NCBI GenBank assembly: GCA_034439735.1
Contig: JAWXAX010000056.1
Location: forward strand, 1 to 43,820
Length of the DNA: 43,820 bases
Reading direction: 5' to 3'
Source: Rhodothermales bacterium
Lineage (GTDB): Bacteria > Bacteroidota > Rhodothermia > Rhodothermales > JAHQVL01
Shown here: in pieces, positions 4,446-42,736 of the stretch
Layout of the letters: the number at the start of each line of letters is the position of its first letter
Position numbering within the stretch: the stretch's first letter is position 1
Translations under genes and position numbers: made by a program
The notes under the pieces: generated by a model
What the model saw: only the letters and a program-made list of their open reading frames with translations
Told to the model about the DNA's origin: nothing
Database searches by the model: none

Positions 4446-7400
4446 TTACTTAATCAACACCATCCGTCCATTCGACACCGTGATGTCGTTCCCGACGGCG
4501 GCCTTCACCTGGTAGACGTACATCCCGGAGGCGAGCTCGGAGGCATCGATCCGGATCGCCTGATTGGCGCCGGGCGCAAACGCCTGTGCCGGCACGTGCA
4601 TCACCTGGCGCCCGAGCACGTCGTGGATCGTGACGTCGACCATCGCCTGGGCGGGAAGGTCGAAGATAACCGTGGTCGTCGGGTTAAACGGGTTCGGGAA
4701 GTTGCCCTGGAGGCGGAAGGCCTCCGGCAGCGCGCCCGGTTCGTCCGTGCTTGTCACCTCGCCGCGGGTAAGGATCACGGAGGCGGCAGGCCCGGTCACG
4801 CGGAAGTTGCCGTCCGTCGCGATGGCGCGGTGATAGAGGGTAGTAGACTGGTCGAGTTCCACGCCGGCGTCCAGCAGCAGGGTGTTCACATCGCCAAAGG
4901 TCGAGGCAAACACGGGCGCCTCGGTAGCGGCCTGGACAAGCAGCGTCTCGAATGCTTCATCCACAGCCAGCTGCCAGGTGTAGAACACCGGGTTGGCGTT
5001 GCGGTCGCCGCCGTTCCAGGCCGGCTCAAACGGCGTGTCGGGGTCGCCCACGACCACCACCGTCGCGCCATCGGCCGGCGCCGTGATCACGGGGTTATTC
5101 GGAGCCACGTTGCCGCTGGGCACCAGCTGGCCGCGCAGTTCGCCCGGGGCGTGGTCGCGGCTGTGGACGTTGACATAGTATAGACCATCCAGCAGGGCCA
5201 ATTTCTGTTCGGACGTGATGGACAACACGTTCTCGGCGGCCGGGAAGGTGCCGCTGAGGCTGTCGTCCGCGAGCGCCGAGGTGAGGACGAAGTCCACACT
5301 GCCGTTGGCATTAGCCGCCCCGGCATGCAGGTGCGCGCCCCCGGCGATGCCGACATTCAGCGCCGAACTGAGGTCCTTGAACGAGCCCGAGACGATCAGG
5401 CTCGTATCACCCAGCACGGCCAACACGGCGCCAGAGGCATTGCTATGGTCCGCAACCGATTGGCTGCCGCCATGGTGGGCGTGCGCCTTGCCCGGGGTGG
5501 AGGAGACCTGGTTATCGAACGCCAGATTCGCCTCGAACGGCCGGTAGCTGAGCGGGTGGATCTGCCCGCGCAGTTCGCCCGACGGCAGCGTATCCGTATG
5601 GACGTTGACGTAGTTGACGAGGGTGAGCAGGTTGGTCCGCACCTCCTCGGTGATGTCGAACACGTTGTCCGCCGCCGCGAAGGTGCCGTTCAGATCGTCC
5701 GGCGTCCGGGTAGCCGTCAGACCAATGGCGATGCTGCCGTTGGTGCCCAGGCCGCCGTCGTGGATGTGGGCGCCGCCGGCTACGTTTTCGTTGAAGCCGG
5801 AGGTCAGCCCGTTAAACGCGCCCGTGACGGTGAGTTTAGACCCGCTGATCTCCAGCATCGCGCCGCCGGTGGCCTGCGAGGTATTGGGCGATGACTGCGC
5901 ACGACCCGAAAGCACGGCGCGGAGGGGGACCGACCACGCCGGGATTACCTGACCACGCAGCTCGCCGGAGGCCTGGTACTGGGTGTGGATGTTCACGTAG
6001 TGGCCGCGCGCGAAGAGCGCGTCGATCGCCGAATCGTCCACTTCGAAAATATTAGACGCGGCTTCAAACACCCCGCTCAGTTCATCCGTCGCCCGGACAG
6101 AGGCGAGGCCATAGGCGATACTGCCCGACTGGCCGGCTAGGCCGCCGTGCAAGTGGGCGCCGCCGGCGACGTTCGGGTTGAAGGCGCCGCGCAATTCGCT
6201 GAAGCTGCCGTGTACGTGCAGGGAGCCGTCGTTTAGCTCCGCGATCACCGATCCTTTTCCCGCGCTGGCGTTGGCCGCCTCCGCGCTCGCCCCACTGAGG
6301 GCAGCGAGGAACGGCGTGCTGCCGGCGTCGATCATCTGACCGCGCAGCTCGCCGGAGGGCAGGTCGACCGTGTGGATGTTGGTGTAGATACCGCGGAGCC
6401 GGATCGCTTCAGCTTGCTCGGGTGCGATCTCGAACGTGTTGTCGGCCGCGGCGAACGTCACGCTGCGGTTGTCGTCGCCTATGGTAGCGACCAGACCCAC
6501 CTCGATGCTCCCGTTCTGGCCGGCCATGCCGGCATGCAGGTGGGCGCCACCCGCGACGTTCGGGTTGAAGTCGCTCGCCAGACCCGACAACGCGCCGCTC
6601 ACGGTGAGCGTCGTGCCCTCAAGCTCGGCGACGATCATACCGCGCCCGAGGGAGGTATTTCCTGGCATCTGACCGCTGCCGGAGAGCACGGATTTAAACG
6701 TCTCGGCCGCGGCGGAGACCATCTGGCCACGCAGTTCGCCACCGGGATTTCCCAGCGTGTGGATATTCATGTACAGGGCGCGGGCCGAGAGGCTCGCCAC
6801 CTGCTCCGGCGTCAGGGCGAATGTGTTGTTCGCCGCTTCAAACTGGCCACCGCGGTTGTCGCCATCGAGCGTAACGGTGAGACCAATCGCGATGCCGCCT
6901 CCCTGGCCGGCCAGGCCGTTGTGGAGGTGCGCGCCGCCGGCGACCGCCACGTTAAAGTCGGTCTCGAGACCGCTGAAGGTACCGGAGACCGTCAGCGTGG
7001 TATCCTCCAGAATGGCGTCGATGACGCCGGTCCCACGGCTCAGGACCCCGGGGCTCTGGCTTCCACCCGAAAGCATGGCGCGGTACAAGGTCGCGTTGGC
7101 GGCGCCGGGCGTTGGCGCCGATACGCGCCAGTTGCCGACAAAATCATCGCCCGTGGGAACGTACGACAGGCTTTGGCCAGACGCTGGAGCAGCGACAAAC
7201 GTGCCGGCTGTCCATTCGCTGGCGCCGACGGCGACGCTCTCCCGAAAATGGCCACCCGTGCCCCATTGCAGGTAGTCGACCATGCTATCGGAGTTGCTGA
7301 AGTCGCTGTTCGTATACAGGCCCACCTCGCCGTTCCCGTCGGGCGTGCCGTCGCCCATGGCATCGTCCAGACGTTCCCAGGCCACGACAAGAAAACCGCC

Positions 7401-7658
7401 AGCCGGAATCGTCGTTGACCCCGATAGCGCCGTCAGCGAAGAGAGAGCCGGGTACGCCGGAAAATTACAGAGTACATAACTGGACACATCGGCTTCGGCA
7501 GGGCCGGCATTGTACAGCTCCACCCATTTCGGCTGCTCGCCGAAATCGACACCATCAAACCCAATTTCGTTGATGATGACCTGTGCATGTGCGTCGCGCA
7601 GAGCGGGGGACAGCGCGAACAGGATAGCGATAAGCCAGAGTCGTAGCGTTCTTGTCAT
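4446..7658 (-). CDS. Secreted multidomain protein: lamin-tail domain, five CHRD repeats, Fn3-like module, T9SS sorting tail
   Basis: The 1,070-residue protein has a Sec signal peptide ending ALRDAHAQ at about residue 26. A lamin-tail-type domain follows (about 27-190, beginning VIINEIGFDGVDFGEQPKWVEL). Then come five CHRD-type domains spaced about 127 residues apart, starting near 193, 320, 447, 574 and 704. Each has an LSG-type opening, a GGAHLH-type core and an INIHT/VNVHT-PSGELRGQ end; the fifth is more divergent. An Fn3-like segment spans about 855-950. The last ~95 residues (GNFPNPFNPTT to the terminal MVLIK) form a type A T9SS sorting domain, implying export across the outer membrane and surface attachment or release. 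CHRD domains are known from chordin and many bacterial surface proteins; their ligand here is unknown. The gene lies 127 bp downstream of the TonB receptor and may be co-transcribed or separately promoted. Confidence 0.88.
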   Translation of the reverse strand: MTRTLRLWLIAILFALSPALRDAHAQVIINEIGFDGVDFGEQPKWVELYNAGPAEADVSSYVLCNFPAYPALSSLTALSGSTTIPAGGFLVVAWERLDDAMGDGTPDGNGEVGLYTNSDFSNSDSMVDYLQWGTGGHFRESVAVGASEWTAGTFVAAPASGQSLSYVPTGDDFVGNWRVSAPTPGAANATLYRAMLSGGSQSPGVLSRGTGVIDAILEDTTLTVSGTFSGLETDFNVAVAGGAHLHNGLAGQGGGIAIGLTVTLDGDNRGGQFEAANNTFALTPEQVASLSARALYMNIHTLGNPGGELRGQMVSAAAETFKSVLSGSGQMPGNTSLGRGMIVAELEGTTLTVSGALSGLASDFNPNVAGGAHLHAGMAGQNGSIEVGLVATIGDDNRSVTFAAADNTFEIAPEQAEAIRLRGIYTNIHTVDLPSGELRGQMIDAGSTPFLAALSGASAEAANASAGKGSVIAELNDGSLHVHGSFSELRGAFNPNVAGGAHLHGGLAGQSGSIAYGLASVRATDELSGVFEAASNIFEVDDSAIDALFARGHYVNIHTQYQASGELRGQVIPAWSVPLRAVLSGRAQSSPNTSQATGGAMLEISGSKLTVTGAFNGLTSGFNENVAGGAHIHDGGLGTNGSIAIGLTATRTPDDLNGTFAAADNVFDITEEVRTNLLTLVNYVNVHTDTLPSGELRGQIHPLSYRPFEANLAFDNQVSSTPGKAHAHHGGSQSVADHSNASGAVLAVLGDTSLIVSGSFKDLSSALNVGIAGGAHLHAGAANANGSVDFVLTSALADDSLSGTFPAAENVLSITSEQKLALLDGLYYVNVHSRDHAPGELRGQLVPSGNVAPNNPVITAPADGATVVVVGDPDTPFEPAWNGGDRNANPVFYTWQLAVDEAFETLLVQAATEAPVFASTFGDVNTLLLDAGVELDQSTTLYHRAIATDGNFRVTGPAASVILTRGEVTSTDEPGALPEAFRLQGNFPNPFNPTTTVIFDLPAQAMVDVTIHDVLGRQVMHVPAQAFAPGANQAIRIDASELASGMYVYQVKAAVGNDITVSNGRMVLIK

Positions 7659-23484: not shown

Positions 23485-24870
23485 ATGCCCCGTCAAGCCC
23501 GTCGTTTGCTTCGTTTCGCCGTCTGGGGTCTCCTCCTCGTGCTGGCCGGCTGGGCGGCCATCGCCTACCATCGGTTCACCGCCGCCCCCACCGAGCGGCT
23601 GGCCGAGGGAGCCCATTATCCTGACTTTCCGCCGGACGACCGCCTGCACTACCTCAGCCAGCCACTTGATCACACCGATCCCGGGGCCGGCCAGTTTGTC
23701 GGATTCTATCGGCTCAGTCCACACTTCTCCCCCAAAAACGGCGTCGTATTCGTGCTTACGGACGGACAGCAACCGCTCGTCGGCCCGGGCGACATACCGG
23801 ACGTCTTAGCCGATAAAGTGGATGGCCTATCGTATATCGTGATGGGCCGGCGTGGCCACGACCCCACACTGTTTCCGGAGGTCTACCACCCCGACGGCTC
23901 GCTCGACCGTCGCGCAGCGGTAAACCTCTACGGCTCATGGCAACACGTCGAAGACATCGAACGCGTCCGCCAGGACGCGGCGCGGAAAGGGCTCCTGCCA
24001 GCCGACGGCAGGATCATGCTCTATGGCGGCTCGGGCGGCGGCGTCCTGGTTCAACAGTTCCTCGCCCGCTACGGAACGCAGGTCTCGCGTGCACTCATCG
24101 AAGTAACCGGCGCGCCTGACCTCGCACGAACCCACCACCTCGACACGTACTGCACGTTCGTAGCCACGACGCAGGAGCACGCTCCGGAGAGCCTGGACCG
24201 GCTCCAATCCGTCCTGCACGAGGGCCGCTTCAATCGGGCCTCGCTGCTGTTTATGCTGCAACGTATCCCCTACGACAGCCTGAATGCCCCCGCCATCCAA
24301 CGGAACCTGATCGACGCACTCGCCGCCCGACGGTCGCTGCCCTACCTGCGACGCTGGATGAGCCCCTCCTCCAACCTCCCCCTGATCAGCACCCTGCTCT
24401 CTGTACCCTCAATGGATGCCGCGCGCGTCCGGATGTTCGAATTGCTGGGGGAAGGACTGCTGGCCTATCCCACGCCGGCCGATGTCCGTTCGCTCAACCT
24501 GATGTATGAGTGGACCGGGCCGCTGCTCGCGGACTTCCTCGATGACGCCCGCGCCGGCCGCCTCGATTCGCCCCGCTTCGATCTCGGTCAACATCGGTCT
24601 GACTTCACCGGACAGGTGCTCGTGATTGCCGCGGCCCGGGATCATGTGTACGGTACCGCGGAGGGCCGGCTACTCGCGGACGTCTATCCGAATGCCCGCC
24701 TGGCGATCTTTGATGATACCCACCGGATGCAACGCATGCCGGCGTTTTACCGGCAATTCCGGCAGACGTTTTTTACCGATGGCTTCGAAAGCGACGCGTT
24801 TCGGGCGCTGATGCAGGACCCGAATCAACTCAACCGTCCGACAGAAGAGCCGCCGCCGGCCATCCCCTAA
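23485..24870 (+). CDS. Membrane-anchored alpha/beta hydrolase
   Basis: The 461-residue protein has a single N-terminal hydrophobic segment (about 10-28, FAVWGLLLVLAGWAAIAY) that anchors or exports it. The hydrolase domain has a nucleophile elbow YGGSGGG (Ser at about residue 181), a later Asp in AARDHVYG and a His in DDTHRMQRM, a plausible catalytic triad. It resembles S33-type peptidases and esterases, but the substrate is unknown. ATG 23485 was chosen because the longer frame overlaps the YdeI-like gene. Its stop overlaps the convergent beta-barrel gene stop by 4 bp. Confidence 0.78.
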   Translation: MPRQARRLLRFAVWGLLLVLAGWAAIAYHRFTAAPTERLAEGAHYPDFPPDDRLHYLSQPLDHTDPGAGQFVGFYRLSPHFSPKNGVVFVLTDGQQPLVGPGDIPDVLADKVDGLSYIVMGRRGHDPTLFPEVYHPDGSLDRRAAVNLYGSWQHVEDIERVRQDAARKGLLPADGRIMLYGGSGGGVLVQQFLARYGTQVSRALIEVTGAPDLARTHHLDTYCTFVATTQEHAPESLDRLQSVLHEGRFNRASLLFMLQRIPYDSLNAPAIQRNLIDALAARRSLPYLRRWMSPSSNLPLISTLLSVPSMDAARVRMFELLGEGLLAYPTPADVRSLNLMYEWTGPLLADFLDDARAGRLDSPRFDLGQHRSDFTGQVLVIAAARDHVYGTAEGRLLADVYPNARLAIFDDTHRMQRMPAFYRQFRQTFFTDGFESDAFRALMQDPNQLNRPTEEPPPAIP

Positions 24871-26789
24871 AACCGACGCAGCAGATACAACGAAAGCCGA
24901 TTCCCGCTGGTCAGATAGAGCATCGATCGACGGTCGAACGCGTAGTTGGCGCGGACCTGCGTCTGCCCGATGGCATACTCGAGCGCGGCTGTCGCCGATA
25001 CGATGCGCTGGGGCTCCGTGAGGCGCTGCTCCCAGTACTGATAACCGGCCGACGCCCGCAGCCGCAGGCTCGCCAGTACTTCCCACGTCGCGATCCCGTT
25101 CAGCGCATAAAGCGACAGCCGGTCCGCCCCCTCCTCGACCCCGCGAACCACGCCTTCGATACTCAGGGTGGTGGACCGCCACGGCGGCAACCCGAGCGAT
25201 ACATTTGCCTCGGATGCCGTGTAGTCGATGTTCGTCGACTCCCGCTTTCGGTGGCTGAGCGTCATGCGAAGCATGCCGACCGGCAGCTTGCGCTGCATTC
25301 GGAACGAGGTGTTTTGCTGCTTGAAGTCGCCCGTGATCAGCCCCTCGCTCATCGATGTGGAACGACGGGAGCGGGTGTGCTGGGCGGAAATCCCGTCGAT
25401 CCGAAGCCCCAGATCCAGGCTGCCTACGGTGCCGCGCTCCTCGGCGGCGATTTCGGGCCGAAACCGGTAGCTGACCAGGATGGCGTCCCCCGGCGCGACG
25501 CGGGAGCCGGCGAGGATCTCGATCTGCACGAGCGCACCCACGGCGATCAACCGATAGTCCAGACCTTCAATAAACAGTGTGGTCTCATCGCCGCTCAGGA
25601 CGACCACGCTCGGCACCTCCACATCGGTCTGTTCCAGGATGACAAGACCGGTTGGATCCACCGTATACGATTCGCGGAGCACGGCCACGAAGCGGTCGCC
25701 GGCATCGTCGAGGTCCCGCCAGATAACGCCGATTGAACCGCCTCCCGAGAAATAGAGCCCGAGGGGCAGGTGCACCCCAAACCGAACCTGCGGGCCGGCG
25801 GAAGTCGCCGTCTGCATCCCCCCATCAAACCGGTTCATGCTCCGGCTGGCATCACCCCCGACACCCAGCCAGGGCCGGATGTCCGAGAACATCGCCCAGG
25901 TATACGCCTCGCCCGACGACATCCCGCCCAGGCCCTCGGTGTCGTACCGGTTCATGCCGAGTCGGGTGTAGGTGGAGGCTGTGTGCTGAAGGCGGACGTT
26001 TTCCGACCAGCTGGCGCGCTCGTACGGCAGCGTCCCGGTCCGATTCGTCCGTTGATACCGGCTCAGCAACTCGCTTCGCTTCCCCCAGCGTAGCGTGTGG
26101 TTCACGTGGAAGCTCTCGGCTCCAAAATCGTTTTCGTAGATCCGGTCGTCAAAGGCCGTGCGCTCGTAGGCGATGTCGATCTTCCGATTCGATGCCGCGG
26201 CTCGAAACGACTGCGTGGCATCCGATTGCTCGATCGGGGTTTGTGTCGGACCGACCTGGGTGATGTTGCGGTAGCTATTATCGGTGTACGACACCGTGAT
26301 CGGAAGCAGCCGGTTCTGGATGTGGAGCGTCGGGCTGAACCGGATCGTCTCGAACTCGCCCTGTGTCCCAAACCCGCCCTGGCGCAGGCCGGCGGTTCGC
26401 GAATAGTGGGTCTGCAGCGACACCGGGCTCGACGCCAGTACGGTGGCGTCGGCCATGTAGGCCAGGTTGCGGGAGATGAGCGGGTTCGGCAGATCGGTCG
26501 ATCGCTGCTGGGTGAAGGTCGGTTGGAACTCGAACCGGTAACGAACGAGCGACGGCCGGCCGATCGACCCATCAAAAGGCAGCACCACCCATTGCCGGAA
26601 GTTGTTCTGGGTGAACGAGCGATCCGTCAGGCCGGCATTGGTGCGCCAGTTGCCATCGTAGCTGGACCCCAGGCGGGTCTGCCGCGGAATCAGCCGCAGC
26701 ACCTGAGCCGTCGCCGGCCGCGCCGGCACGCCGGCCAGCGCGGTCACGATAACCACCGCGGCAAGACGATATGTGGCGCCCCTGAACAT
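24867..26789 (-). CDS. Outer-membrane beta-barrel protein of the cytochrome operon (possible conduit porin)
   Basis: The 640-residue product has a signal peptide (LAAVVIVTALAGVPARPATAQ region, about residues 8-29). A long series of alternating polar/hydrophobic strands follows, ending in terminal Phe (LYLLRRF), which is typical of outer-membrane barrels. No plug or STN domain is visible. In the middle, about 380-430, a more soluble segment (SVVVLSGDETTLFIEGLDY) is present. Located directly after three multihaem cytochrome genes, it may form the sheath of a porin-cytochrome complex comparable in concept to MtrB/PioB. This is inferred from context and size, not from a recognised family motif. 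The start overlaps the previous stop as TGATG at 26787-26791. Confidence 0.72.
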   Translation of the reverse strand: MFRGATYRLAAVVIVTALAGVPARPATAQVLRLIPRQTRLGSSYDGNWRTNAGLTDRSFTQNNFRQWVVLPFDGSIGRPSLVRYRFEFQPTFTQQRSTDLPNPLISRNLAYMADATVLASSPVSLQTHYSRTAGLRQGGFGTQGEFETIRFSPTLHIQNRLLPITVSYTDNSYRNITQVGPTQTPIEQSDATQSFRAAASNRKIDIAYERTAFDDRIYENDFGAESFHVNHTLRWGKRSELLSRYQRTNRTGTLPYERASWSENVRLQHTASTYTRLGMNRYDTEGLGGMSSGEAYTWAMFSDIRPWLGVGGDASRSMNRFDGGMQTATSAGPQVRFGVHLPLGLYFSGGGSIGVIWRDLDDAGDRFVAVLRESYTVDPTGLVILEQTDVEVPSVVVLSGDETTLFIEGLDYRLIAVGALVQIEILAGSRVAPGDAILVSYRFRPEIAAEERGTVGSLDLGLRIDGISAQHTRSRRSTSMSEGLITGDFKQQNTSFRMQRKLPVGMLRMTLSHRKRESTNIDYTASEANVSLGLPPWRSTTLSIEGVVRGVEEGADRLSLYALNGIATWEVLASLRLRASAGYQYWEQRLTEPQRIVSATAALEYAIGQTQVRANYAFDRRSMLYLTSGNRLSLYLLRRF

Positions 26790-27736
26790 CACGGAGCCGC
26801 TACTTCCACATGGCAGCGCTGGCAATTGCCGAAGCCAGCGGCAAAGGCGGTCTTCCCGTCGTGGCATTGCCCGCACGCCTCGCCGGCGCTGATCTGCGCC
26901 ATCGTGATCGCGTTGGCGCCGGCCTTCGGCTCGAACAGACCCGTATGACAGACATTGCACGTGAACCGGATGCGATGCACCCAGTGCGGAAACACGGCCT
27001 CGGGCAGCGAGGCGTTCGAAACGAGGTGCTGCTCGATGGCCGAAGTATCCGTTGCCGCCGAGTCGGCCACAACAGGTGGGGCATCCACGCGCGTCATGTG
27101 GATCGTGCCGAGCAGATCCGGTTGCGCCCGATCCGGAGGTTGGGGCAACTCCTGATGACAGCGCTCACACCCCGTGATGGGAGGAAAAGCGACCTTCCCG
27201 TGGCATTCGCCGCAGAACTTGCCCTCGAACACGTCGGCCATCTGGATCTCGTTGTCCTGGTACTTAAAGATGGGCCCGTGGCATTGGGTACAGGCGACCC
27301 ACTGGGTGTGGGCGGAGTGCGGGAAATAGGCATCGAACATCGACGCCGGCCCGGGGAAATAAAAATCAAACCCGAAGCGGAAGGGCGTCCCCACAAAGAG
27401 GCTGGCCGAATCGCCCGGGAGCGCCGTTCGAGGACGGATCGTGCCATCACGCAGCGCCTGCATCCAGTCGATGTTGCCGGCGTGATCCTTCGGCAGCATC
27501 AGGACGACACTATCGGCGACCAGGGTGGCCTCGATGGCCGGTCGCGGTCGGTCATCCAGCGGCGTCGCGAGGGGGGCTACCGCCAGCCGGCTGGGCGCCG
27601 GCGCGACCTGCCGCTCGGGCAGGTCGAACACCACCGAGAGCGCCTGCCGGCAGCCGGCAAGCGCAAGCACCCCGATGAATAGCAGCGGCCATACAAGCAA
27701 ACCATCGTTGGCGGCCCGGGAAAAGAGAAAACGCAT
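26789..27736 (-). CDS. Hexaheme c-type cytochrome lipoprotein
   Basis: The 315-residue protein has a lipobox LAGC with Cys at residue 29 and six CXXCH haem sites: CTQCH, CGECH, CERCH, then CNVCH, CGQCH, CQRCH. The two groups of three each begin with an FPHSAH/FPHWVH-type motif, giving two c7-like triheme modules separated by a linker of about 60 residues. The N-terminal ~130 residues carry no haem motif. It is predicted to be lipid-anchored in the periplasmic or outer membrane, passing electrons to the adjacent barrel. Haems require a c-type maturation system, not present in this window. Confidence 0.9.
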   Translation of the reverse strand: MRFLFSRAANDGLLVWPLLFIGVLALAGCRQALSVVFDLPERQVAPAPSRLAVAPLATPLDDRPRPAIEATLVADSVVLMLPKDHAGNIDWMQALRDGTIRPRTALPGDSASLFVGTPFRFGFDFYFPGPASMFDAYFPHSAHTQWVACTQCHGPIFKYQDNEIQMADVFEGKFCGECHGKVAFPPITGCERCHQELPQPPDRAQPDLLGTIHMTRVDAPPVVADSAATDTSAIEQHLVSNASLPEAVFPHWVHRIRFTCNVCHTGLFEPKAGANAITMAQISAGEACGQCHDGKTAFAAGFGNCQRCHVEVAAP

Positions 27737-27766
27737 GGAATGACCTCGTTGGGTGGGAGGCGGAGC

Positions 27767-28471
27767 CTACTTGATGTGGCAGGTGAGGCACAGGCTGCTG
27801 CCGCTGTTGTTCACGCGGAGCAGGGGCGAGTTCGTGTTGTTGTGTGGGTTGTGGCAACTCGCGCACTGCACCTTCTCCCCGAGCGAGGTGGGGTCGACAA
27901 ACAGCTTCACGCCAGCCGCCCGTACGGAGGCCACCGCATTAAAGGCCGGGTCCTGCGCCGGGTCATACACGACGGAGATCGGATGGTCGTTGCGCAGGTC
28001 GGTGTCCAGCAACGCATGGCTGCTCGCCGGCATGGTATTCGTCCCCGGAGTCGACCCCGGGACGCCGCCGGCGTACGAGTTCGGCGCGTTCACGACCACG
28101 TCGAGGCCGATCGTCCCGTCGTGGCAGCTGAGACAGGCCAGCGACGTACCGCTGGGCTGGGCGTCGACATTCATGTCGATCGTCGAGCTGTGGTTCGCGT
28201 CGTACATGTTGTACGTGGCCGACGAGAAGTTGCGGTTCCACAACGGCGCGCTGATGCTGCCGGTGTGCGGCGTGTGGCAATAGACGCACACCTCGCCGTA
28301 ATCGACCAGGTTGTCGCCCACCGTGGGGTCGTTACCGCCGGAAAGCATCGAGAGGTTGTGCTTGGTGATCAGCACATTGTCCGTCTGTGCGGCAACGCCC
28401 TGTGGCAAAGCCAGAAGGACCGTCAGAGCGGCGAGCAGGCGCAGGTGTAGGGTAACAGAGTACGACGTCAT
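27767..28471 (-). CDS. Tetraheme cytochrome c
   Basis: The 234-residue exported protein has a signal peptide ending GVAAQ and four CXXCH sites (CVYCH, CLSCH, CASCH, CLTCH). The first pair occurs in the doubled-CXXCH style, in the contexts YGEVCVYCHTPH and LACLSCHDGTIG. It is a paralogue of the pentaheme protein at 29733-30512, sharing the NDHPISVVYDP motif and the C-terminal LLRVNNSGSSLCLTCH pattern. It is expected to shuttle electrons in the periplasm. It lies 29 bp after the NHL gene and 30 bp before the hexaheme gene. Confidence 0.9.
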   Translation of the reverse strand: MTSYSVTLHLRLLAALTVLLALPQGVAAQTDNVLITKHNLSMLSGGNDPTVGDNLVDYGEVCVYCHTPHTGSISAPLWNRNFSSATYNMYDANHSSTIDMNVDAQPSGTSLACLSCHDGTIGLDVVVNAPNSYAGGVPGSTPGTNTMPASSHALLDTDLRNDHPISVVYDPAQDPAFNAVASVRAAGVKLFVDPTSLGEKVQCASCHNPHNNTNSPLLRVNNSGSSLCLTCHIK

Positions 28472-28500
28472 ACAGGTCGTCAGCTTGGGGTGAGCGGGTG

Positions 28501-29727
28501 TTAGCGATTAGCGCCGGATGTCGAGGAAGCATTCGACGGATCCCCGGCCGGCGCCTGGGAATCCGGGTGATACTGGTACATCTGGATCCGGCTGTTGTAG
28601 CGATCGGCCACATAGATCCGGTCGCTGGCGTCGATCGCCAGGCCCAGCGGAGGCCACAGCTGCCCGGGCCCACCGCCGATGGCGCCAAAGGAAAGCAACA
28701 GCTGCCCCTCGGCGTCAAAAATCTGCACATTGTTAAAGGCCGCGTCAGCTACGTAGACATGCCCTTCGGTACTGACGGCCAGGCCCTTTGGCCGGGCGAA
28801 CGCGCCGGGGGCATCGCCCTGCCGGCCAAATGCGAAGCGAAATTCGCCCTCCCGGTCGAAGGCCTGCACGCGAAAGTTCATCCCGTCGGACACGTAGACG
28901 GTGCCATCCGGGCCGACGTCGATGAACGCAGGGTAGCGGAATTCACCCGGCCCGTTGCCGCGGTTGTCCGTCAGGTCGCTGGGCTCGCTCACCGGATGCC
29001 CCGGCGCGGCGCTGGCCAGCAGGGCGCGGCGCTCCTGCTTCTCTTCGATGCTCCCCTGGTCCCGTCCAATACGCCGCAGCAGCGTCCCATCTCCCGCAAA
29101 AACTACTACCTGATGCAGGTAGCTGTCGGCCACATAGATCCGGTCGCCGGCGGCCGAGACCGCGACATCCACCGGGTTTAGCAATACGCCCTGGCCGCCA
29201 TACGCGCGGACGAAGTCACCCTGTGCCGTCAACGCGACCACGCGGCGTTGGACGGGGTCCGCCACGTACAGCAACCCCTGGTCGTCTCCGGAAAGCCCCA
29301 TCGGCTTGACTAGTACGCCGGCGCCAGTCGGCGTCATCCTTTCGGCATCGCGGCGCTCGGGATGAAACCGCATCACGCTGCCCTGCATCCCGTTGGTGAC
29401 ATAGATGCTCCCGTCGATACCCACATGCACATCGAACGGCCGATGCACGAGGATATCCTCGCCGAGGTCCCCCCCGAACACCATGCGGCGCACCCGTTCT
29501 CCGAGGCTATGGGTGAAGCCGATGCTCTCCTGCGAGGTCAATTCCCCCTGGTACTGGATCCGAAGGGGGTCGGGAGGCAGGGGCCATACGGTTTCAGCGC
29601 CCGGCTCCAGGCCGGCGTTATAAGACAACGTGGACGCTGGGGCGGCGCACCCGGCCAACAGGCCAAGCAGGGCCAGGGTCAGTCCTGTCGCGCGTACAAG
29701 AATATGCACTGGAGTGGGTTCGTACAT
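28501..29727 (-). CDS. NHL-repeat six-bladed beta-propeller lipoprotein
   Basis: The 408-residue protein has a lipoprotein signal with the lipobox LAGC (Cys27). About six NHL blades follow, each with an IYVTN/LYVAD/VYVSD-type signature, from about residue 90 to 390. Propellers of this kind are usually binding scaffolds. Sitting between two multihaem cytochromes, it may hold the complex together or bind an external ligand. ATG 29727 was chosen over an upstream ATG because it places the lipobox correctly and leaves 5 bp after the cytochrome stop. Confidence 0.88.
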   Translation of the reverse strand: MYEPTPVHILVRATGLTLALLGLLAGCAAPASTLSYNAGLEPGAETVWPLPPDPLRIQYQGELTSQESIGFTHSLGERVRRMVFGGDLGEDILVHRPFDVHVGIDGSIYVTNGMQGSVMRFHPERRDAERMTPTGAGVLVKPMGLSGDDQGLLYVADPVQRRVVALTAQGDFVRAYGGQGVLLNPVDVAVSAAGDRIYVADSYLHQVVVFAGDGTLLRRIGRDQGSIEEKQERRALLASAAPGHPVSEPSDLTDNRGNGPGEFRYPAFIDVGPDGTVYVSDGMNFRVQAFDREGEFRFAFGRQGDAPGAFARPKGLAVSTEGHVYVADAAFNNVQIFDAEGQLLLSFGAIGGGPGQLWPPLGLAIDASDRIYVADRYNSRIQMYQYHPDSQAPAGDPSNASSTSGANR

Positions 29728-29732
29728 CGAGG

Positions 29733-30512
29733 CTACCAGTCGTGCGCCGTGCCTTCGCCCGGCTGGGTTCTGTGGCATACCAGGCAAAAGCTGTTTCCAG
29801 CGTTGTTGACGCGCAGAAACGGCCGGAAGCGCTGGCTGTGGGGTTCGTGGCAGGTCATACACTGCACTTTGCCGTCGTACAACGTCAGGCCGGCGGCCTC
29901 GATTTCGGCGGCCGTCCGGAAGCCGGCGTCGCGGCCGGGGTCGTACAGCACCGAGATCGGGTGGGTATCCCGGAGATCGTCCGGCCGAAACCAAACGCCC
30001 TCGAAGTCGATACCCCCCTTGGGATTTCCCCCGCTGTGGCAGCCCTCGCATTCGTCGATGGGTGTCCCTGAAGGACCTCGACCCGAGTAGGTGTTGGGGG
30101 TATTGAGGATCTCATCGACCCCTATCGTGCCGTCGTGGCAGGAGAGGCAGGAAAGTGAGTTGCCCGTGGGCTGCGGGTCCGCTATCATGTCCAGATCGTC
30201 GGGATCGAACATACGGTAGGGGCCAGAGGGGATGGGTCGGTTCCAGAGCGGGCGATCGACGCGGCCGCCGTGTGGAGCGTGGCAGTACACACACACCTCG
30301 CCGTAATCTTGAACGAGGCCGGCCATGTCGGAACTCGTGTTGCGGGCCGGAACGGTGAGGTTGTGGAACGTCTGGGTGACCACCGGCCCGGTTGGCCACT
30401 GTGCGCGAACCGGGACAACGCGCAGCGATGCACCGACAAACACGCCGACGGCGATCAGGAAGACCGCCTGAAAGAATATGAGCCTGGGGGCCGGGCCTGG
30501 CATTACATCCAT
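29733..30512 (-). CDS. Pentaheme cytochrome c, first gene of the operon
   Basis: The 259-residue protein has an N-terminal hydrophobic export segment (about 10-30) ending VRAQ and five CXXCH sites: CVYCH, CLSCH, CEGCH, CMTCH, CLVCH. It is paralogous to the tetraheme protein, with an extra CEGCH inserted in the middle. The motif DTHPISVLYDP is conserved between them. It heads the five-gene cytochrome/NHL/barrel operon, and the shared upstream element lies about 55-73 bp before its start. It is probably periplasmic. Confidence 0.9.
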   Translation of the reverse strand: MDVMPGPAPRLIFFQAVFLIAVGVFVGASLRVVPVRAQWPTGPVVTQTFHNLTVPARNTSSDMAGLVQDYGEVCVYCHAPHGGRVDRPLWNRPIPSGPYRMFDPDDLDMIADPQPTGNSLSCLSCHDGTIGVDEILNTPNTYSGRGPSGTPIDECEGCHSGGNPKGGIDFEGVWFRPDDLRDTHPISVLYDPGRDAGFRTAAEIEAAGLTLYDGKVQCMTCHEPHSQRFRPFLRVNNAGNSFCLVCHRTQPGEGTAHDW

Positions 30513-30566
30513 GAATGGTAAACGAGTCGGTGCAATGCAGGCTTACAGGACTGCGTGTCGACCCCA

Positions 30567-30585
30567 TTTTCCCAAAGGATGTGCC
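30567..30585 (-). promoter_or_regulatory. Shared upstream element (sigma-54-like) before the cytochrome operon
   Basis: Minus-strand reading GGCACATCCTTTGGGAAAA, about 55 nt before the operon start. It differs at one position from the element at 21730-21748. GGCACA fits a sigma-54 -24 box, but the downstream TTGGG departs from TTGCA. It is probably regulatory because of its conservation and its similar distance to two operon starts. Confidence 0.5.
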
Positions 30586-30785
30586 GTGATGAGAACTCCG
30601 TGAGAGAAAGCGTTAGCCAGAAAATAATCTGCCTGAACAGTGCACCAGACGCATCAATCGCCGCATCAAATCCACCCCCACGGATTCACCTGTCCAGATC
30701 GTGCACAGGTGTCTATTGGAAGACAGAACCGGGTGTCAGGGATTCGCTCACAGGATCACGCATAACGGATATGTCGGCCCCGGGT

Positions 30786-33305: not shown

Positions 33306-35048
33306 TTACTGGCCGAGCAGGTCCTGCATCTTGTACGCTCGCTTCAAAACGTCCCCAGCGGCGACGCTGAGGCTCGTCTCCCATCGGCCGACATCGGGTA
33401 GTTCCAGCATGAGGCGGTGCTCCCCGGGCCATAACACGATCGGCGTTTCGAGTGGGGTGTCATCAACGTAGTTCCCATTGATGTAGACCTTCGCCCAGGG
33501 GATGACATCGAGTTCGAGTGTCCCCACCAGTCGCCAGAGGGATACATTCATCGTATCCGTCTGGCCAGGCGCCAGGGTAACCGTGGCGTCATAGGGTGGG
33601 AACGATGGATGACTCAGCCGAATGCGGTACGCGCCCGCCGGCCGCTCGATCGTTCGCACCGGCGGCACCGTCCCGAGGGAGTCGTTTTCGATGATGGCCT
33701 CGCAATAAGGGGTGCAGAAAATCGAGAGCTTCGCCAGCGAAGGGGAGGGCGGCAGAACAGAACTGGCTTCGGTCGTATCCGCCGGCGCCGTTGTGAGATC
33801 GAGGCCCGTCACGCCTACAGAATCCGAATCCGTGTCCGGCAGACGCACATCCGTCTCCGCGTCTCCACGCGCAGGGCGTTGCAACACCACCAGAGGCTCG
33901 GGCAAGGCAGCGCCCAGGGATACGACGGTATCACCGTCGGGGAAGATTGCCGTTGAATCCTCTACAGGAGAAAGGGCGGCGGCCACTGGAGGCTCTGCAA
34001 CAGGCTCGTCGTTCCTTACCGCCCAGAGCGTCGCGGTCACCAGAAACAGGGCAACACCGAGCCATGCCGCATACACCAGCCGACGCGGAGCGCGGGCCAC
34101 CCCGCGCTCGATCGTCGCAGCGGCAGGCCTACGGGTTGGGACACGGGCCGCCGCGACCACGAGCGGCGTGTTCAGACGAGCGGCAACCTCCTCCGGTTGT
34201 TCAAGAAAAGCCTTGAGATCCGCGGCGCCAGCCGGGTGAACGGCTGATTTCAGGTCTAGCAGATCCCCGGCCAGTTCGTGGGCGCTGGCGTACCGATTCT
34301 CCGGCGATTTCGCGAGCAGACGGCCACACATGGCTTTCATACCGTCCGGCACGTACGGATTGGCCTCCAGCACCCGCACCGGATCGTACTGCAACACGGC
34401 ATCGATCACGCCGCTGGCGTCCCTGCCGGCAAAGGCCGATTGGCCAGCGAGCATTTCGAAAAACGTGGCGCCGAGTGAAAACAGGTCCGACGCGGCCGTA
34501 GGCACCGGGTCCATCAGGTACTCCGGCGCCATATAGGCCAGAGTCCCCCGGATTTCCGATTTCCCCACCCCGCCCTGATCGAGAGACGCCATCCCGAAGT
34601 CGGCGATCTTGACCTGACCCTCGTGGGAGAGCAGGATATTCGCTGGTTTCAGATCGCGGTGAAAGATGCCCTCCGCGTGCGCTGCCTCGAGTCCGGCTAC
34701 AACCGCCGAGAGGATATACAGCGCCAGGGCCGGCGGCAACCGGTGGTCGGAAAGCAGGGCGGCGAGAGACATCCCCTCGATGTATTCGGCTGTAAAATAG
34801 GCGCCGTTCGGCGAACGGCCGAAGCCGTAGACGCTTACTACGTTCGGGTGTTGGATACGCGCCATCAGGCGCGCCTCTTCCTCGAAGCGCGCCGTCAGGT
34901 CTTCGTCGTGTCGCGCATCGGGGTTGATGACCTTGAGCAGGACAAACCGATCCAGCGACGCCTGGTACGCCTTGTACACGACCGTCCATGCGCTCCGGGA
35001 GAGTTCCAGGAAGGGCTTGACGTCCGTCAGGAAATCGGTAGGTCCCAT
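33306..35048 (-). CDS. Membrane Ser/Thr protein kinase with two PEGA domains
   Basis: The 580-residue protein has a Hanks-type kinase domain (about 10-275) with Lys39, HRDLKPAN (Asp132, Asn137), DFG (Asp150) and APE. A transmembrane segment (about 325-345, AAWLGVALFLVTATLWA) leads to an outer region with two PEGA-type domains (about 440-580). The usual glycine-rich loop is replaced by LSRSAWTVVY, lacking all three glycines. The kinase would sense envelope signals through PEGA and signal inwards. The start at 35048 overlaps the activator gene by 22 nt, implying coupled expression. Confidence 0.88.
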   Translation of the reverse strand: MGPTDFLTDVKPFLELSRSAWTVVYKAYQASLDRFVLLKVINPDARHDEDLTARFEEEARLMARIQHPNVVSVYGFGRSPNGAYFTAEYIEGMSLAALLSDHRLPPALALYILSAVVAGLEAAHAEGIFHRDLKPANILLSHEGQVKIADFGMASLDQGGVGKSEIRGTLAYMAPEYLMDPVPTAASDLFSLGATFFEMLAGQSAFAGRDASGVIDAVLQYDPVRVLEANPYVPDGMKAMCGRLLAKSPENRYASAHELAGDLLDLKSAVHPAGAADLKAFLEQPEEVAARLNTPLVVAAARVPTRRPAAATIERGVARAPRRLVYAAWLGVALFLVTATLWAVRNDEPVAEPPVAAALSPVEDSTAIFPDGDTVVSLGAALPEPLVVLQRPARGDAETDVRLPDTDSDSVGVTGLDLTTAPADTTEASSVLPPSPSLAKLSIFCTPYCEAIIENDSLGTVPPVRTIERPAGAYRIRLSHPSFPPYDATVTLAPGQTDTMNVSLWRLVGTLELDVIPWAKVYINGNYVDDTPLETPIVLWPGEHRLMLELPDVGRWETSLSVAAGDVLKRAYKMQDLLGQ

Positions 35049-36538
35049 TCTTTAAGCCGATTATGGATCCAGCCGCGCGAAACGCCCAGCCGGCGGGCCG
35101 TTTCGGATACGTTGCCCTCGCAGGCCTTCATCGCCTCCTCGACGACGCGCCGCTCGATGTCCGCGAGGGTCTGCCCCTCGTTGAGCATCTCATGATACGA
35201 CCGTTTCAGCGGCTTGTCGCCCACGGGCAGGTTCATATCATCCACCCCCACAACATCACCCATCGTCATCACGACGGCACGCTCGATTGTGTTCTGCAGT
35301 TCGCGTACGTTGCCGGGCCAGGCATGGGCGCGCATCGCATCGATGGCTTCCGTCGTGAACCCTTTGATGTGCTCGCGCCGGCCGACGGCGTATTTGTCCA
35401 GGAAGAAATTCGCAAGCAGGGGGATGTCCATACCCCGATCCCGTAGAGGCGGCGTTGCGAGAGTGATCGTGTTCAGCCGGTAAAAAAGATCCTCTCGGAA
35501 CGAGCCGTCCTTGATGAGTTGCATCACCGGTTTGTTCGTGGCCGACAGGATGCGCACGTCTACATGACGCACACTGTTTTCGCCAATACGTTTGATCTCC
35601 CCCTCCTGGAGCACGCGCAACAGCGCCGTCTGAAGGGACGGACTGAGGTCGCCCACTTCGTCCAGAAACAGGGTCCCGCCGTCGGCGGCCTCGAACAGGC
35701 CGGCTTTATCCGCCACCGCGCCGGTGAATGACCCCTTTTTGTATCCGAACAGCTCGCTCTCAAGCAGCGTATCGGGCAGGGAGCCACAGAACAGCGCCAG
35801 AAACGGTTTCTTCTGGCGGTGCCCGCTATAATGGATGGCGCGAGCGACCAGCTCTTTGCCGGTGCCGCTTTCCCCCTGAATCAGCACGGTGGCGTCGTTG
35901 TCCAGCACGCGCTCCATGATCGCATACAACTTCCGCATGGGCGGGCTCTGCCCGATCATCTCGGCGAACCCGTGTATGTGCTGCAATTCACTCCGCAACT
36001 GGCGATTTTCGTCGCGCAGGGTCTGGTACAGCCGTGCGTTTTCAATGGCAACGGCGGCGAGATTCGAGAACGCCTCGAGGAAGGGAAGATTTTCTTGCTT
36101 GAACCGGCTCCTGTCGGTGAGGCAGTCCATGTAGATCGCGCCGATCTGACGGTTCTTAAGCCGCAGCGGGACGCATGCGATGGATTTGATGTGCTGCACG
36201 ACGATGCTTTCGGCCCCACTGAACCGCTCGTCCTCGAGTGCCTCGTGCACCAGCACGGGCTCGCCCGTTTGCAGGACGCGGTGTACCACGCTTGTGGAGA
36301 TGCGGACGACGTCGCCGAGTTGCTCCTCGGTGAAGTTGATCGTGCTTCGGATTTCGAACCCGACGCGTTCAGTCTCCGAGCTAAGCAGCACAAACCCGCG
36401 ATCGGCGCCAAGCGCTTCCATCGCGGCTTCCAGTACCTTACCCATCAGGGCGTCCGGCTCCTGGATGGAGTTCAGCGTCAACGCGATATCAAACAACGCG
36501 TCGAGGTTTGTGCGATAGTGGGGTTCAGCCGATGGCAT
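35027..36538 (-). CDS. Sigma-54-dependent activator (GAF-AAA+-Fis)
   Basis: The 503-residue activator has an N-terminal GAF domain (about 15-165). The AAA+ domain (about 190-415) has Walker A GESGTGKE near 220, the sigma-54 contact loop as GSFTGA (269-274, instead of GAFTGA) and Walker B LFLDEVGD. The C-terminal Fis-type helix-turn-helix (about 465-500) is [16 protein letters not shown]. It activates sigma-54 promoters by ATP hydrolysis; the GAF domain implies a small-molecule or partner signal. It forms an overlapping pair with the kinase gene, and a sigma-54-type promoter follows downstream, making that promoter a likely target. Confidence 0.94.
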
Positions 36539-40302: not shown

Positions 40303-42600
40303 TTACGAATTCATGACGATCAGGAACTCATCGTTATCCCGCGTGCCGCGCATCTTGTCGAGCAGGAAGTTCATCGACTGGACCGGATCCATATCGGCCA
40401 GCAGCTTCCTGAGGATCCAGACACGGCTGAGTTTGGCCTCGGGCAGCAACAGCTCTTCGCGACGGGTGCCGGACTTGACGGTATCCATCGCAGGGAAGAT
40501 CCGGCGATCGGCCATTTCGCGGGAGAGCACGAGCTCCATGTTACCGGTGCCCTTGAACTCCTCGAAGATAACTTCGTCCATTCGACTTCCGGTGTCGATG
40601 AGCGCTGTCCCGATGATGGTCAGCGACCCTCCTTCTTCCACATTTCGCGCCGCGCCAAAGAAGCGCTTGGGGCCGCGGAGTGCGCCGGCTTCGATACCGC
40701 CCGAGAGGGTTTTGCCCGTATTCGGCGCTACCGCGTTGTGTGCACGCGCCAGGCGGGTGATGGAGTCGAGCAGGATGATGACATCCTGGCCCGCCTCCAC
40801 GAGGCGCTTGGCTTTTTCGAGCACGATGTCGGCCACTTCCACGTGGCGTTCCGGCTCCTGATCAAACGTGGAAGAGATCACCTCGGCCTGCACGTTGCGC
40901 ATGGTGTCGGTTACTTCTTCCGGGCGTTCGTCCACCAGCAGAATGATCAGGTAACACTCGGGGTGATTTGTGGTGATCGCGTTGGCAATCTTCTGAAGCA
41001 GGATCGTCTTACCCGTCTTGGGCTGCGCGACGATGAGGCCGCGCTGACCCTTACCGATGGGCGCGAAGAGATCCATCACGCGCATGCTGTAATCGGTCGC
41101 ATGGTATTCCAGCCGCAGTTGTTCTTCCGGATACAGCGGCGTCAGGAAATCGAAGCTGATTCGCTCTTCCAGCTCGGCCGGCGTGCGGCCGTTGATGCTG
41201 TTTACCTGGATGAGCGCAAAGAACCGCTCGCCTTCCTTGGGTGGGCGCACTTCGCCGTCCACCGTGTCGCCGAGGCGCAGGCTGAACCGTTTGATCTGCG
41301 AAGGCGAAACGTAAATGTCATCTGGACTGGGCAGGTAGTTGTATTCGGCGGAACGGAGGAAGCCGTAGCCGTCGGGGAGCACTTCGAGCACCCCGACCTT
41401 GTTGATCATGCCCTCCAGTTCTGTCTTATTCGGGTCGTAATTGGCCATGTATTTCGGCCGGCCCTCGTATACACGCTTGCGCTGCTCTTCGCGCGTACCG
41501 GTCATGGCCCGCTGCCGGCGGTTGTCGGGAACCGAAGGAGGTCCCCCACTGCCCGGTCGTTTCTCCGGTCGGCGCGGATCACGCCGTTCCATGCGGCGCG
41601 AATCGCGCTCGCCCGGACGTCCCGCGCTACGGGCGTCGCCCCGGTCTCCGCGAGCGTCGCGGTCCCGATCCCCACGGCTATCGCGGTCCCCGCGATCTCC
41701 GCGACTGTCGCGGTCGCTGCGGACTTCGCGATCTCGCTCGCCCCGGCTGTCGCGGTCGCTCCGTGTATCCCGGCTGTCCCGCTCGCCGCGGCTATCGCGG
41801 TCGCCCCGCGTATCCCGGCTGTCGCGGTCGCTACGCACCTCCCGATCTCTATCCCGGTCGCTCCGGGGCGCATCGCGGCTGTCGCGGTCGCTACGCACCT
41901 CCCGATCTCTATCCCGATCGCTCCGGGGCGCATCTCGGCTGTCGCGGTCGCTACGCCCTTCGCCGCGGGTTTCGTTGCGGCCATTGGACTTGCGGCCTTC
42001 ATACCGATCGTCTGTCCTGCGCGGTGGAGTACGTTCGTTCAAGGTGCGAACCTCACCTCGATCGTTTCCCTTGCGGGTTCTGGAGCCCGAATCGTCCGGC
42101 GCGTCGCTACTCGAGCGCTCGTCCACTCGAGGTCCGCGTCCTTCGGGACGGGCGTCCCTCGGGCGGTACGAGCCACGGCTGTCGCCACTGTCGGGTCGCT
42201 CTTCCCGGGGCCGGTTCTCCTCATAACGCCGGCCGCCCTCGCGCCCTTCGCTCCAGGATTCGGTGCTGCTGCCCCGAGCGGGACGCTCCTCCGTTTCACG
42301 CGGCGTCCGTGCTTCCGCCCGAGGACGACGCTGTTCGCGCGGCGAAGCTTCGTCGCCGGCGCGGCGAGGCGCCGGCGTATCGGCGGCCGACTCGGTCCGG
42401 TCCCGCGCGGCGGCGGATGGGGCGGATGCCGGAGCACCCGCAGCCGGCGCGGCCGTGTGTGCTACGGCTTCGGCACGGGTCTCAAGGATGAGATAGATTA
42501 AATCCTGCTTTCTCAGCCCGGAATAACCAGTTAGGCCCAGATCCCGGGCGATATCTCTGAGGTCGGCGAGTTTTTGGTTCTGCAGGTCGGCAATTTTCAT
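40303..42600 (-). CDS. rho: Transcription termination factor Rho with large disordered insert
   Basis: The 765-residue Rho is far longer than the 419-residue E. coli protein. The N-terminal Rho_N helices (about 1-45, [18 protein letters not shown]) are followed by an Ala/Arg/Asp/Glu/Gly/Ser-rich insert of about 320 residues, then the RNA-binding OB fold (about 390-460). The ATPase core has Walker A QPKTGKT, Walker [16 protein letters not shown] and [11 protein letters not shown]. Rho is a ring-shaped hexameric helicase that ends transcription. In Bacteroides, a disordered Rho insert has been reported to drive condensate formation, so the insert may serve a similar role. ATG 42600 was chosen because the longer frame adds an unrelated N-terminal extension. 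Confidence 0.96.
41813..41960 (-). repeat. 60-bp tandem coding repeat in the rho insert
   Basis: About two and a half copies of a 60-bp unit encode a 20-residue repeat of Asp, Arg and Ser ([18 protein letters not shown] pattern), roughly residues 215-262. The copies are nearly identical at the DNA level, implying recent duplication or gene conversion. Flanking sequence carries more degenerate DSRGDRD-type units. Confidence 0.85.
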
Positions 42601-42736
42601 ACAGCGTGGAAGAATAGATGCGGCAGGGGTGTTGTTGGCGTTCAGTGGAACCTCCGCTCTGGCATATCTGCGCGTACAATCCATCCTCGCGCGGTAGACG
42701 GCTCAGAAGTGAATCCAACAGGCTCGAAACACCCTC

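Follow-up and report, generated by a model that had tools for sequence, protein, structure and literature searches.

We consider it fairly probable that five contiguous genes of a Rhodothermales bacterium form a compact operon of the Uet (undecaheme electron transfer) type for extracellular electron transfer, in which a hexahaem lipoprotein and a putative outer-membrane barrel would make up a conduit coupled to a filament of OmcE-type cytochromes. The genes, here called A to E, lie in a stretch of 43,820 nucleotides (the window). This reading builds on the observed gene set, its homologies and conserved haem ligands, the conservation of the operon and its phylogenetic placement. The original prediction had taken the genes for a porin-cytochrome conduit; its pairing of D with the neighbouring E as a plausible conduit stands, while the OmcE-type filament subunits were overlooked. 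Because the 5-haem and 4-haem proteins are of this type, we read the operon as a filament-plus-conduit system and not as a conduit only.

Five contiguous genes encode 15 haem sites

Genes A to E are five intact reading frames that follow one another on the minus strand from 30512 to 24867 of the window (Table 1). A and B are separated by 5 bases, B and C by 29, and C and D by 30, and the stop codon of D overlaps the start codon of E in the common sequence TGATG. The prediction that the genes are contiguous with overlaps or short gaps is thus borne out, as is the predicted set of 15 haem sites, an NHL propeller and a barrel-like protein, which agrees with the reading frames, the domain matches and the CXXCH counts of A, C and D (5 + 4 + 6). 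Only the order needs correction: the propeller had been listed after the 4-haem protein, and the real order is 5-haem, propeller, 4-haem, 6-haem, barrel. When the sequences of A, C and D were shuffled, a CXXCH motif arose on average 0.01–0.02 times per protein and at most once, so the 15 sites are not due to chance.

Table 1. Coordinates and properties of the operon genes and of the region preceding them (positions in the window).
Feature	Position	Strand	Description
Gene A	30512–29733	minus	Pentahaem OmcE-family cytochrome, 259 aa, 5 CXXCH, ATG start
Gene B	29727–28501	minus	NHL-repeat beta-propeller lipoprotein, 408 aa, lipobox LAGC, ATG start
Gene C	28471–27767	minus	Tetrahaem OmcE-family cytochrome (UetA-like), 234 aa, 4 CXXCH, ATG start
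Gene D	27736–26789	minus	Hexahaem lipoprotein, 315 aa, lipobox LAGC, 6 CXXCH, two GSU1996/TIGR04257 trihaem domains, ATG start
Gene E	26789–24867	minus	Putative outer-membrane beta-barrel, 640 aa, UetC-like position, C-terminal RRF, no CXXCH, ATG start
Region upstream of A	30513–30785	minus	Intergenic; all other gaps are too short for an operon promoter

The region upstream of A (30513–30785) was searched for a consensus sigma-54 or TAnnTTTG site, and none was found. A few kilobases upstream of the operon, positions 33306–36538 of the window encode a Ser/Thr kinase with PEGA domains and a NifA-like sigma-54 activator. The NHL repeats of B matched PF01436 with an E-value of 5.6e-29, and B shares 34–48% identity with the NHL genes of homologous loci.

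A and C are related to the filament subunit OmcE

We searched the sequences of solved structures with a profile built from A, C and three relatives. The profile matched OmcE (7tfs), the Geobacter subunit that forms extracellular filaments, over its whole length with an E-value of 1e-42, and 9yuq, which holds 16 copies of one chain, with 1e-36; the next match followed at 4e-4. Each of the two proteins also retrieved both 7tfs and 9yuq singly, with phmmer matches to 7tfs at 3.2e-28 for C (102 bits, residues 14–234) and at 1.4e-16 for A (64 bits). Searches of Pfam/NCBIfam gave a match to a paired-CXXCH domain (3e-12) among the operon proteins.

In an alignment of 27 sequences (A, C, 24 relatives and OmcE) four CXXCH motifs are invariant, and only four other histidines are nearly so, at positions 38, 69, 163 and 210 of C. 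All four are present in OmcE, and the sole exception among the aligned proteins is one sequence cut by the end of its contig. We take these histidines to be the distal ligands, one for each haem. The adjacent subunit supplies a histidine ligand to one of the haems of OmcE (PMC9473688, PMC12954529). Judged by these comparisons, A and C are full-length homologues of OmcE of Geobacter sulfurreducens, with its four CXXCH motifs and its four other histidines at matching positions, although their sequences are distant from it and A has a fifth haem site. An AlphaFold model of C, computed from five sequences and without haem, reached a pLDDT of 33.

Homology to OmcE alone is no proof of polymerisation, and A and C could instead be monomeric surface or periplasmic cytochromes, in which case the operon would be a plain porin-cytochrome conduit as originally predicted. 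This would agree with the extra haem of A and with the outline of the Uet system in PMC10734462, where the only description of UetA is that of an extracellular tetrahaem cytochrome. We nevertheless regard it as improbable, since all eight haem-ligand positions of OmcE, including the N-terminal histidine, are kept in A, in C and in nearly all of the 24 relatives.

The fifth CXXCH motif of A (CEGCH, residues 155–159) belongs to an insert that follows haem 2 and precedes the histidine of the DxHPIS motif. The insert with this haem site, which reads CEGCHSGGNP or CAGCHSGSSP, also occurs in three Gemmatimonadota proteins (L034, L036 and L039). A and the proteins of L034 and L036 further have a C-terminal extension, absent from OmcE, with a histidine that is a possible sixth ligand. 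In quick trees, which carry SH-aLRT support and no bootstrap and contain some long branches, A grouped with the 5-haem proteins of Gemmatimonadota (SH-aLRT 99 and 95). Because A clusters with other pentahaem proteins, a recent lineage-specific duplication giving rise to A and C was rejected, and A is by its position in the tree an old paralogue that represents a conserved pentahaem OmcE type. We speculate that the side haem of A might bring the wire into contact with solvent or act as a marker of the filament base.

D is a hexahaem lipoprotein encoded next to a putative barrel

D contains two c7-type trihaem domains (TIGR04257, 8e-35; 72 and 60 bits, with a cut-off of 40, in Pfam/NCBIfam), and among solved-structure sequences these are closest to GSU1996 (5e-58). 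Across 14 relatives of D the six CXXCH motifs, four further histidines (140, 143, 251 and 254) and methionines 166 and 279 are conserved, the two methionines being lost together in two of the 14. Met 279 aligns with the axial methionine of GSU1996, and Met 166 is its equivalent in the first domain. One haem per domain has His-Met ligation in GSU1996 (PMC10138318). Each domain of D likewise has three CXXCH motifs, two distal histidines and an axial methionine, as in the GSU1996-type trihaem domain, and we predict bis-His, bis-His and His-Met ligation for its three haems. Thus D shares the domain type and the conserved His and Met ligands of the dodecahaem ‘nanowire’ cytochrome GSU1996 (3ov0), but differs from it in having two domains instead of four, a lipid anchor and a conserved N-terminal segment of about 100 residues.

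In the gammaproteobacterial locus L058, the place of D is taken by two genes, one for a trihaem lipoprotein and one for a second trihaem protein; the lipoprotein starts with FFD-x-x-PP after the lipid cysteine, similar to D. This suggests that D arose by fusion of two Uet-type trihaem proteins.

E has a signal peptide, a C-terminal phenylalanine and an alternating, amphipathic strand pattern, and is conserved in 20 homologues. No Pfam family matched E at E <= 1, 13 of its relatives gave only chance-level matches, and no solved structure matching E by sequence was found. AlphaFold modelling from three sequences yielded a low-confidence model (mean pLDDT 38) with about 26 strands; the amphipathicity profile of the family gave the same number as a weak estimate, and both place an inserted domain near residues 365–465. 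On these features we treat E as a putative outer-membrane barrel.

The arrangement is similar to MtrAB, MtoAB and PioAB in that a multihaem cytochrome adjoins a large barrel (about 26 strands for E, weakly estimated), but the operon is without a decahaem MtrA-type protein, and D has six c7-type haems. Membership in MtrAB, MtoAB or PioAB was rejected on account of this missing decahaem type and because 14 barrels had no Pfam match to any such family at E <= 1.

The gene set recurs in Gemmatimonadota and Gammaproteobacteria

The profile of D found proteins in 11 of 298 Gemmatimonadota genomes and that of E in 10 of 369 Gammaproteobacteria, and 4-haem, NHL and 11-haem genes surround most of the 10 gammaproteobacterial barrels. 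In the loci examined, the recurrent order is NHL, OmcE-type 4-haem, hexa- or trihaem and barrel, after which a second NHL gene and an 11-haem gene often come next, and L034 and L036 hold the same five kinds of gene as the window. The conservation of the set, on which the original prediction depended, is therefore found in both groups. Every examined locus with a complete D has the barrel next to it, except L004. Several gammaproteobacterial loci (L060, L061 and L063–L065) combine the barrel with an OmcE-type protein, NHL and 11-haem genes, with no tri- or hexahaem gene detected between NHL and barrel, so the pairing of D and E is not universal.

Some loci show further variation. On one contig of genome G246, a haemless remnant of D lies beside the barrel (L032:8587-8904), and about 15 kb from it there is an intact hexahaem D (L004:7911-9014) with an NHL and 11-haem pair as its neighbours; the D gene has apparently been relocated within this genome. 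Directly upstream of a Gemmatimonadota operon, L003:4073-5629 encodes one CXXCH motif followed by a barrel-like region, a putative Cyc2-like layout. Many of the loci L037–L040, L042 and L060–L065 have additional 7- and 8-haem proteins beside the cluster, and the Uet-like family is thus more varied than described.

The operon resembles the Uet cluster

As outlined in PMC10734462, the Uet cluster comprises the 11-haem UetJ, the extracellular 4-haem UetA, the PPIase UetB, the barrel UetC, the trihaem proteins UetDEG and the NHL proteins UetHI. It is described for Tenderiales and Gallionella (PMC10734462, PMC12575090). The cluster uetABCDEFGHIJ of Tenderiales is linked to cathode oxidation (PMC10734462, PMC12575090) and is assigned to extracellular electron uptake in the account of PMC12575090. 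Compared with the description in PMC10734462, the window has in common with Uet a 4-haem protein, a barrel, c7-type trihaem domains and an NHL protein. The same components are present in the gammaproteobacterial loci L058 and L062; L058 has in a row NHL, 4-haem, two trihaem, barrel, NHL and 11-haem genes, and a PPIase was not identified in it.

Unlike Uet, the window is without the 11-haem UetJ, the second NHL protein and the PPIase UetB, the two trihaem proteins are fused into a hexahaem lipoprotein, and there is an extra pentahaem paralogue. There is no 11-haem gene beside the operon, and an OmcE profile that finds 11-haem proteins in other genomes retrieved only A and C from the host genome; the window genes scanned around the operon contain no UetB-type PPIase domain. 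We therefore classify the operon as Uet-like and not as a complete Uet system. The claim of a new arrangement did not hold up, because the same set is that of the Uet cluster as described in PMC10734462 and PMC12575090. What is new here is the compact variant with its fused trihaem pair, the conserved pentahaem OmcE paralogue and the new host phylum. In the literature searched, outside which lie the primary Tenderiales paper (mSphere 2022) and the paper of Baquero et al., we did not find UetA named as a relative of OmcE, and we make no claim of priority.

A second comparison is offered by the osc (omcS-companion) operon of Geobacter, for which PMC13194489, in reporting Shen et al. 2025, gives proposed roles of OscH in folding, of OscE/F/G in secretion and of OscD in filament morphology. 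Compared by description, in both operons the neighbours of filament cytochrome paralogues are proteins with proposed roles in secretion and filament morphology, but OmcS is hexahaem and unrelated in sequence to OmcE, and the window operon is without a PPIase. By analogy, the osc roles support a filament-assembly role for B and perhaps for E.

The main alternative to a conduit of D and E follows from this analogy: E would be a secretion or anchoring pore for the filament, B would act like OscD, which we take to be propeller-like, and D would feed the filament base from outside the barrel. The constant core across both phyla, consisting of OmcE-type protein, NHL protein and barrel with or without a tri- or hexahaem protein, fits such a pore, and so does the pairing of a filament cytochrome with proposed folding, secretion and morphology proteins in osc, as presented in PMC13194489. 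We consider it rather unlikely, however, because in Gemmatimonadota as in the window D lies immediately upstream of the barrel gene, overlapping or nearly touching it, which favours a complex of D and E.

The operon was likely acquired from another phylum

The host is the only genome of its class with D or OmcE-type proteins (1 of 245) and the only one in the phylum sample with E (1 of 345, barrel profile). In the trees, E grouped with a Gemmatimonadota barrel (SH-aLRT 99) inside a Gemmatimonadota clade, and C with a protein of the same Gemmatimonadota genome (93). As the host stands alone in the class and phylum samples and E nests among Gemmatimonadota, the operon was likely acquired horizontally from another phylum. 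No match to the 4-haem protein turned up in a search of plasmids.

The occurrence of the operon in a single genome of the class and the grouping of E, C and A with Gemmatimonadota proteins would also fit a misbinned or chimeric contig whose operon belongs to a Gemmatimonadota genome. This is very improbable, since other genes of the contig fit the host lineage: its Rho shares 77–89% identity over 435–568 aa with genomes of the same family, its kelch protein has its best relatives in the host family, and a type-9 secretion sorting tail is present. The G+C content of the contig is even (0.59–0.68), and genome contamination is 0.71%. Horizontal gain is thus the simplest reading of the tree and the host-lineage flanks taken together. 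The Rhodothermales-like background proposed earlier is consistent with the sorting tails and the SusC/FecR-like genes.

Two of the flanking genes have features of their own. The Rho protein (40303–42684, 793 aa) contains a long, poorly conserved stretch between its N-terminal domain and its RNA-binding domain, and the large protein encoded at positions 4446–7658 combines five CHRD domains with a type-9 secretion sorting tail.

A proposed path of electrons through conduit and filament

In the mechanism we propose, A and C would be exported and would form polymers outside the cell, with a histidine of each subunit serving as ligand to a haem in the adjacent one; C would make up the main filament and A would occupy a special position. 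D would be a six-haem wire held at the outer membrane by its lipid anchor, possibly sitting in E, and together with this barrel would relay electrons from the periplasm to the filament base or back, while B may assist in the assembly or stabilisation of the filament or of its base. Electrons may move inward or outward. OmcE is assigned to metal reduction. Uet is assigned to electron uptake as reported in PMC12575090. The physiological role of cytochrome filaments, including long-range electron transfer, is disputed (PMC11077965). No inner-membrane electron-transfer partner was found in the window. A separate multihaem protein of the host genome, L067 (G000:C14:3805-4296), is a 652-aa frame with five CXXCH motifs and a weak NapC/NirT match.

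A bolder version of this proposal, which we hold to be possible though doubtful, is that the five genes encode one transferable machine, with C as the shaft subunit, the pentahaem A as its base or exposed contact, and the conduit of D and E feeding the filament. If this were true, filament and conduit would be a single machine and not separate pathways.

Judging from its genes, the host probably has a compact kit by which electrons cross the outer membrane and reach a conducting filament. According to PMC12307469, the export of cytochrome filaments, their anchoring and their electrical connection to the outer membrane are unresolved. Since one conserved and transferable operon here combines filament subunits with a propeller, a lipid-anchored wire and a barrel, only a few genes would be needed to test this question. 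The OmcE filament family would thereby be linked to the Uet systems known from iron- and cathode-oxidising bacteria, and these systems would be extended to a further phylum.
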